Shown piece after piece: positions 59,738 through 60,500 of a stretch of DNA of 64,000 bases. The notes under the pieces are model-generated. The model was not told the origin of the DNA. It saw nothing but the letters and a program-made list of their open reading frames with translations, and ran no database searches. The translations under genes and the position numbers were made by a program. The stretch comes from Chlamydiota bacterium (GTDB lineage: Bacteria > Auribacterota > Tritonobacteria > UBA1439), in assembly GCA_012729785.1 (NCBI GenBank), contig JAAYCL010000037.1:1-64000 (forward strand), given 5' to 3'. Position 1 is the first letter of the stretch, and every line of letters begins with the position of its first letter.

Positions 59738-59812
59738 GGGGGCGTAGCTCAGCGGTAGAGCAGCTGCCTTTTAAGCAGTTGGTCGGAGGTTCGATCCCTC
59801 CCGCCCTCACCA
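59738..59812 (+). tRNA. tRNA-Lys (TTT)
   Basis: The cloverleaf folds fully. The acceptor stem GGGGGCG pairs with CGCCCTC, the D arm is GCTC...GAGC, and the anticodon stem GCTGC/GCAGT closes loop CTTTTAA with anticodon TTT. The T arm is GGAGG-TTCGATC-CCTCC, and the encoded CCA is at 59810-59812. Confidence 0.95.
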
Positions 59813-59819
59813 GTACTAC

Positions 59820-59842
59820 CGTTGATAGTTTCTCGTTTCTCG
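59820..59842 (+). repeat. Left terminal inverted repeat of the S23 element
   Basis: 23 bp beginning CGTTGATAGTTTCTCG, followed by a further heptad GTTTCTA to 59848. It pairs with 60352-60374 with one mismatch. Confidence 0.85.
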
Positions 59843-59913
59843 TTTCTAGGGGGATAGGGATAACGGAAGAAGAGGCGGGTGCGAATCCTCGGGATGGGGA
59901 GAGAGAGGCGCGG

Positions 59914-60330
59914 ATGGCGGAGGAGAAGGGCTTTTTCGATTTCGAAAAGCTGACCGTCTACCGGCGCGCGCTCGAGTTCGCGGACTTTGTTTTTCCCCTG
60001 TGCCGGAGGATGGCCCCGGAATACCGGAGCTCTGTCGCCGACCAGTTGCAGCGCGCGGTGGTGTCGATCGCCAACAACATCGCGGAGGGAGCGGGCAAGC
60101 TGTCGCACCGGGAGAAGATCAAGTACTATTCATACGCCCTCGACTCGGCGAAGGAATGCGTGCCACCCCTCACGATCGCCCGGAGGCAGGCGCAGATCGA
60201 CGACGGAGAACTTGCGGCAGGGAGAGAGCACTGTGAGGCGATCTGCAAGATGCTGGTGAAGCTGATACAATCGGTCGAGGCGCGGGAGCTCCGCAGGGAG
60301 GTGCGCGACGACCCGAGCCTCTTTCAGTAG
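59914..60330 (+). CDS. Four-helix-bundle protein (S23/IVP family)
   Basis: This 138-residue protein belongs to the 23S-rRNA-intervening-sequence (S23, PF05635-type) family. It has the family pattern FDFEKLTVYRRALEFADFVF, then EYRSSVADQLQRAVVSIANN, IAEGAGKLSHREKIKYYSYA and DSAKECVPPLTIARR, giving four long helices. The IAEG block with basic patches is thought to bind nucleic acid; relatives are found in rRNA intervening sequences and, as Avd, beside diversity-generating retroelements. No reverse transcriptase is near. GAGAGAGGCG lies before the start. Confidence 0.85.
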   Translation: MAEEKGFFDFEKLTVYRRALEFADFVFPLCRRMAPEYRSSVADQLQRAVVSIANNIAEGAGKLSHREKIKYYSYALDSAKECVPPLTIARRQAQIDDGELAAGREHCEAICKMLVKLIQSVEARELRREVRDDPSLFQ

Positions 60331-60351
60331 GGCATCACAGGTACAATATCC

Positions 60352-60374
60352 CGAGAAACTAGAAACTATCAACG
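60352..60374 (-). repeat. Right terminal inverted repeat of the S23 element
   Basis: On the minus strand it reads CGTTGATAGTTTCTAG and on; one mismatch to the left repeat. Another GTTTCTC heptad lies just outside it at 60375-60381. Confidence 0.85.
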
Positions 60375-60389
60375 AGAAACTGCAGTCGC

Positions 60390-60465
60390 GACCCCATCGT
60401 CCAGAGGCCTAGGACTTCGGATTTTCGATCCGACAACCCGGGTTCGAATCCCGGTGGGGTCGCCA
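60390..60465 (+). tRNA. tRNA-Glu (TTC)
   Basis: The acceptor GACCCCA pairs with TGGGGTC, with U8 and C9 as in other glutamate tRNAs. The D arm is GTCC...GGAC, and the anticodon stem TCGGA/TCCGA closes loop TTTTCGA with anticodon TTC. The T arm is CCGGG-TTCGAAT-CCCGG, and CCA is encoded at 60463-60465. Confidence 0.95.
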
Positions 60466-60470
60466 TCCTT

Positions 60471-60500
60471 CACGGACAGGGGCGAAAGCCCCTGTCCGTG
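60471..60500 (+). terminator. Perfect 13-bp hairpin after tRNA-Glu
   Basis: CACGGACAGGGGC (60471-60483) pairs with GCCCCTGTCCGTG (60488-60500) around a GAAA tetraloop, 5 bp after the CCA end. Only scattered T residues follow, so it may be a terminator or a processing signal. Confidence 0.6.

Follow-up and report, generated by a model that had tools for sequence, protein, structure and literature searches.

One gene between two arrays of short repeats: that is the whole content of a 555-bp unit lying between the genes for tRNA-Lys and tRNA-Glu in the window (the entire stretch of DNA that was analyzed, 64,000 nucleotides long). The gene encodes a four-helix-bundle protein of the S23 family and the arrays face inward. 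Units of this design make up a class of small elements that is widespread and has, at least at times, been mobile. The one in the window is probably, if by no means certainly, an old resident copy of such an element, in which rings of S23 protein bind the inward arrays and an enzyme acting in trans makes use of the ends that these arrays define.

The unit and its neighbors

The ends of the unit (59820-60374) are inverted repeats of 23 nt each (59820-59842 and 60352-60374), complementary at 22 of 23 positions and spaced 509 nt apart. The initial annotation had described these ends as built on heptads, and they are: the consensus of the arms is NGTTTCT ([AC]GTTTCT in the unit's own genome, G000), and the flank-to-flank inverted score of the S23 gene is 20.5, compared with a maximum of 14.0 reached by shuffled sequences (n=2000). 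The heptads extend beyond the inverted repeat, to 59849 on the left and to 60381 on the right (Table 1). The S23 ORF (138 codons), put forward at the outset as the only cargo, is indeed the sole convincing ORF between the arms; it matches the Pfam family PF05635 (23S_rRNA_IVP; E=1.9e-22, 79.9 bits against a cut-off of 33.8) and TIGR02436 (four helix bundle protein; 8.6e-23, 80.6 bits against a cut-off of 24). Both ends lie as close to a tRNA gene as had been claimed (no more than 15 bp): the gap is 7 nt on the tRNA-Lys side and 15 nt on the tRNA-Glu side. The terminator-like hairpin that follows tRNA-Glu suggests that tRNA-Lys, S23 and tRNA-Glu share a single transcript.

Table 1. Features of the S23 unit and its surroundings (window coordinates)
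Feature	Position	Strand	Remarks
tRNA-Lys(ttt), left neighbor	59738..59812	+	
Left arm, inward-facing heptad array	59820..59849	+	CGTTGAT-AGTTTCT-CGTTTCT-CGTTTCT-AG
S23 / 23S-IVP four-helix-bundle gene	59914..60330	+	profiles PF05635, TIGR02436; AlphaFold; Foldseek
Right arm, inverted heptad array	60352..60381	-	inward on - strand: AGTTTCT-CGTTGAT-AGTTTCT-AGTTTCT-CG
tRNA-Glu(ttc), right neighbor	60390..60465	+	
Terminator-like hairpin 3' of tRNA-Glu	60471..60500	+	

The heptad array pattern is matched 14 times in the 2.59-Mb genome to which the unit belongs, and its reversed control is not matched at all. The 16S-23S spacer of this genome (L010, G000:C15) holds an ORF-less inverted heptad pair 5' of tRNA-Ile (L010:1440-1690) and a second pair, of the AGCTTACAG type, between tRNA-Ile and tRNA-Ala.

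Structures of S23 proteins have been solved since 2006, and we know of no function that has been assigned to these proteins. The AlphaFold model of the window's S23 protein (pLDDT 95.1) retrieves 2gsc as its top Foldseek match (E=7e-7) and Avd (4dwl) as the next, with TM scores of about 0.7-0.9 against the Avd structures 4dwl and 8ub7; it is thus predicted to fold like XCC0516 (2gsc) and to resemble Avd. XCC0516 is a homopentamer (PMC4990558). Avd works with retroelements, and a partner of that kind, which the initial annotation had brought up, found no support: RVT_1 was detected neither in the unit's own genome nor in 8 of 16 S23-rich genomes. Its absence at home and the lack of relation between RVT_1 and S23 counts (rho 0.13) speak against a reverse transcriptase acting in trans.

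Age of the copy in the window

An orthologous S23 gene occupies the same site in five relatives (G001, G002, G003, G004 and G006), in company with tRNA-Lys and/or tRNA-Glu (the contig of G001 stops shortly past S23, and ARAGORN called one of the two tRNAs only in G002 and G003). The heptads at the site are AGTTCAA/AGTTGAA in G003, GTGTAAA/GTTTAAG in G002, AGTTTCT/AGTTATT in G004 and NGTTTCT in G006. The gene is under purifying selection, to judge from dN/dS of about 0.1-0.2 (with dS mostly saturated), and no tRNA-Lys/tRNA-Glu site without the unit was seen among the relatives compared. Persistence of S23 at its site while the arrays turn over marks the window's copy as old, and the orthologues rule out a recent insertion there. 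The initial proposal of a mobile unit therefore has to be divided: it stands for the class, with its many sites, precise empty sites and ORF-less relics, and falls for the window's copy as a recent jump. Occupation of the same place in relatives, coupled with absence of other copies, had been named as evidence that would tell against mobility; the first was found, in the five relatives, and the second was not, as other copies exist.

Several further loci in this group of genomes are on record. The unit's own genome has a second S23 gene (L002, G000:C3), placed upstream of a large gene that is probably leuS; S23 genes of its type keep that position in G002 and G004 (L076, L085), with arrays that are G-rich and, where scored, of period 8. 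Upstream of a tRNA-Lys in G002, an ORF-less heptad pair is situated within a duplicated 5' part of tRNA-Lys (L080, G002:C206); in G006, the duplication comprises the 3' part of tRNA-Lys together with an array (L096, G006:C42).

Array-gene-array architecture across phyla

The search for heptad arrays at other S23 loci that the initial annotation had recommended was productive: 31 of 42 S23 loci in the unit's own genome and its relatives reach a flank-to-flank score of 12 or more, and the architecture can be made out there by eye. Scanning GTDB species genomes for a conserved S23 motif yielded 80 loci from many phyla with 78 scorable S23 genes. With crude ORF calls, 61 of the 78 reach that score as against 32 of 447 other genes of the same loci (p=3e-28), an approximately 11-fold excess over neighboring genes; several of the high-scoring controls are themselves further S23 genes or have the same arrays. 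Period 7 is found in 46.9% of S23 flanks and 9.0% of control flanks, and lag 14 in 45.6% and 6.4%, respectively; enrichment is less strong at lags 8 and 9 (and at the doubled 16) and absent at the other periods from 3 to 13. The median period-7 array has 4.0 units, and a minority of arrays is made of 8- or 9-nt units. Arm sequences differ from locus to locus while polarity is kept: read inward, G exceeds C in 104 of 113 arrays, and G[TG] recurs at a fixed phase in 76 of 92 period-7 arrays (19 on the other strand).

Might replication slippage generate heptad arrays in any intergenic gap, with S23 merely sitting in such gaps? Array length does vary at high identity (L372 is two heptads shorter than L200) and there are arrays without S23. 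However, slippage leaves the paired inverted arms and their polarity unexplained, together with the S23 excess and the link between array period and S23 clade that is taken up below; it is also disfavored by the control genes, which come from the same loci. We regard it as very improbable indeed.

A partial rRNA query found no match in the 80 S23 loci. S23 as a phage gene was considered and rejected: one S23 query matched none of 50,697 phage records. In the unit's own genome, tRNAs adjoin 4 of the 8 separate array sites that were inspected, but most array loci of the relatives lie away from them, and targeting of tRNA genes as a rule was rejected.

Inverted short-period arrays also surround GxxExxY genes (PF13366, PD-(D/E)XK-like) of the same genomes (L221-L248). 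These arrays are mostly of period 9 (CCACAGAGGACACAGAG and alike; range 8 to 10), and 21 of 23 genes reach a score of 12 or more; the unit's own genome has an example at L234 (G000:C33:4166-4513). In Geobacter sp. AOG1, a small ORF (L175:7674-8118) that by eye is DUF559-type endonuclease-like is bracketed by long inverted repeats, CCTCTTCCCCC...CCCGCTGGGGGAGG.

Arrays and their S23 proteins

For 23 of 68 S23 cases, the array units are found again elsewhere in the locus, compared with 84 of 4556 other-locus comparisons (1.8%). When array period (7 versus 8/9) is mapped on the tree of the S23 proteins (n=117), 12 changes are required, while shuffling requires 19.1 (sd 1.3; p<=0.0005), and in G002 period-7 and period-8 arrays exist side by side, largely sorting with S23 type. 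This match of period to clade is the strongest argument for the array being set by the protein or by its element lineage. At the level of whole genomes, S23 and heptad density are weakly related (one-sided p=0.03). G016 has many heptad arrays and no detected S23, which leaves S23 as a prerequisite for heptads unsupported, and G051 has 19 S23 matches and few arrays. G051 (L045 and other contigs) also has short S23-like ORFs arranged in several head-to-head pairs at a spacing of about 175-200 bp; the pairs center on a AAAAAAAGTTC/GAACTTTTTTT palindrome, and heptad arrays are absent in the one pair read.

The scheme that we favor has a single S23 gene (Avd fold; a pentamer in known structures) between two inward arrays of about four 7-nt units. 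The arrays would be binding sites of the S23 ring, either as DNA or as transcribed RNA, and the ends that they define would be used by a putative enzyme acting in trans.

Presence, absence and movement

Whole units are present at some sites and missing from the corresponding sites of relatives. The ilvN-ilvC spacer is empty in G000, G001, G003 and G012; it contains S23 with AAGGATT-type heptads in G002 and G005, a different S23 subfamily with different arrays in G004, and ORF-less inverted arrays in G006, G009 and G010. The paralogues L098 and L099 of G006 share 86% identity, which is confined to the gene and the inner part of the arrays. At a Nostocales plasmid site, an S23 unit is present in T. 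variabilis plasmid C and in Scytonema, and the site is precisely empty in L369 and L370, whose flanks are about 97-97.5% identical (four more plasmids lack the unit, judged by coverage). The empty site reads aaaaagTAATtaacaaat and the filled site aaaaagTAAT-unit-TAATtaacaaat: a 4-bp target duplication, TAAT, and the sole clean case. At this same site Nostoc sp. C052 has an S23 relic and Brasilonema has an ORF-less pair flanked by TAAT repeats. More distant plasmids are filled, so that the empty state here may be the result of precise loss; some filled/empty differences may accordingly represent loss rather than insertion. At a second filled site, TTCT is consistent with a duplication but may instead belong to the array, and a clean duplication was not seen at four others (L199, L203, L383 and L384). 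Single unpaired arrays are dispersed as well.

GTTTCT heptad arrays are also nested in other inverted-array elements, of the CACGGAG/CTCCGTG and CACAGAGG types (L013, L048, L055, L058, L061, L064, L066 and L070), which suggests insertion of one element into another.

These units could be ordinary MITE-like parasites: an unrelated transposase would then move heptad-ended elements, and S23 would be a passenger having nothing to do with the arrays. ORF-less versions are common, S23 has no known catalytic motif, the GxxExxY genes are a second small family likewise placed between inverted short-period arrays, and the Y1_Tnp count tracks the S23 count (rho 0.67). Yet Y1_Tnp is missing in 2 of the 16 S23-rich genomes, a Y1/RAYT transposase acting in trans being rejected on that account despite the correlation, and Y1 elements insert without target duplication. 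Arms that vary in sequence while keeping period and polarity are unlike fixed terminal repeats, and neither the tracking of S23 clade by array period nor purifying selection on the gene at the window site is what a passenger would lead one to expect. The passenger explanation is unlikely.

Predicted transcripts of the unit

When transcribed, the arms could pair to form a stem around the ORF, in the manner of rRNA intervening sequences (IVS). They close the predicted RNA fold of the window's unit in both MFE and centroid structures, the fold as a whole being no more stable than those of shuffles (z=-0.74). With such a stem, RNase III could excise the unit from the tRNA-Lys/tRNA-Glu precursor, and release of this kind would account for the tolerance of sense-oriented units in operons. 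S23 runs in the same direction as both neighbors in 81 of 111 cases and antisense to both in 5 of 111; such a sense preference would follow from tolerance or processing of the RNA stem or, alternatively, from a need of S23 for read-through.

One could take this to mean that the unit is an RNA-level module with no mobility at all, its arms forming a stem in the transcript to which S23 binds, thereby controlling processing of the host operon. There is a precedent: the Coxiella IVS contains an S23 ORF, has terminal repeats that pair into a 28-bp stem, and is cut by RNase III (PMC4990558). The strong sense bias, the closing of the predicted fold by the arms, and the likeness to Avd, which belongs to the ribonucleoprotein of diversity-generating retroelements (DGRs), all conform. 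Against this stand the presence or absence of units, and the occurrence of ORF-less copies, at one and the same spacer (units come and go), the dispersed unpaired arrays, and the plasmid S23 units that are antisense to both neighbors. A module that acts on RNA and never moves seems to us distinctly improbable, and we retain the mobile element with array-defined ends as the probable explanation.

Relation to known systems

By their manner of working, the S23-heptad units are closest to IVS and to REPIN/RAYT. S23 ORFs in IVS are known from 23S rRNA, and a role of the ORF in mobility has been proposed (PMC4990558). The IVS of Leptospira and Coxiella likewise have one S23 ORF between complementary, stem-forming ends and a sporadic distribution. 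However, they are described inside 23S rRNA; S23-heptad units occupy spacers genome-wide (in the window, the one between tRNA-Lys and tRNA-Glu), and have periodic arrays for ends, changing in sequence while keeping period and polarity. REPIN/RAYT systems also comprise a single gene flanked by repeats that recur elsewhere in the genome as dispersed inverted pairs, and the repeats of S23-heptad units are dispersed in this way too. But RAYT is an HUH (Y1) tyrosine transposase, while the S23 protein, the unit's one convincing product, is a bundle of helices with no known nuclease motif; its units have 7-nt tandem arrays, not palindromic REPs, and one insertion has a 4-bp duplication. Avd of the DGRs has the same fold as S23, but no adjacent reverse transcriptase, template or variable repeat is seen at the S23 unit, and its genome has no reverse transcriptase. 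The unit in the window has none of the features that define these three systems (23S location, HUH transposase, reverse transcriptase).

The arrays themselves have a literature of their own. Dispersed heptamers include GGGAATC in Xanthomonas, GGGGAYT in Nostoc and TAACTGA in Beggiatoaceae; intergenic 7-nt arrays prefer four units and often form inverted convergent pairs (Rehm 2015); and no intergenic periodic repeat of prokaryotes is commoner than tandem heptamers, for whose function there was "no clear clue" in 2018 (PMC6344855). Window-type arrays share the intergenic location, the 7-nt unit, the number of units (about four) and the inverted pairing, and differ in being tied to a gene family. 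S23 is not mentioned in the heptamer-repeat texts examined, and a paper linking it to heptad repeats was not found among the open-access papers searched, within which the link appears to be new.

The link points to a protein that may help to explain the 7-letter repeats so common in bacterial genomes, and it makes the role of the heptamers and the role of S23 directly testable together. The GxxExxY genes between arrays of period 8 to 10 suggest a second example and, with it, a general type of single-gene element with inverted short-period ends. The findings also suggest a broader class of which rRNA intervening sequences would be one member. In its widest form, the proposal is that the heptamer repeats of bacteria have S23 proteins as their cognate binding factors, that a non-enzymatic ring protein and its inverted 7-, 8- or 9-nt arrays co-evolve and move together as minimal elements throughout the bacteria, and that the rRNA IVS is their special case; this we put forward tentatively, as a possibility to which we give a little less than even weight.
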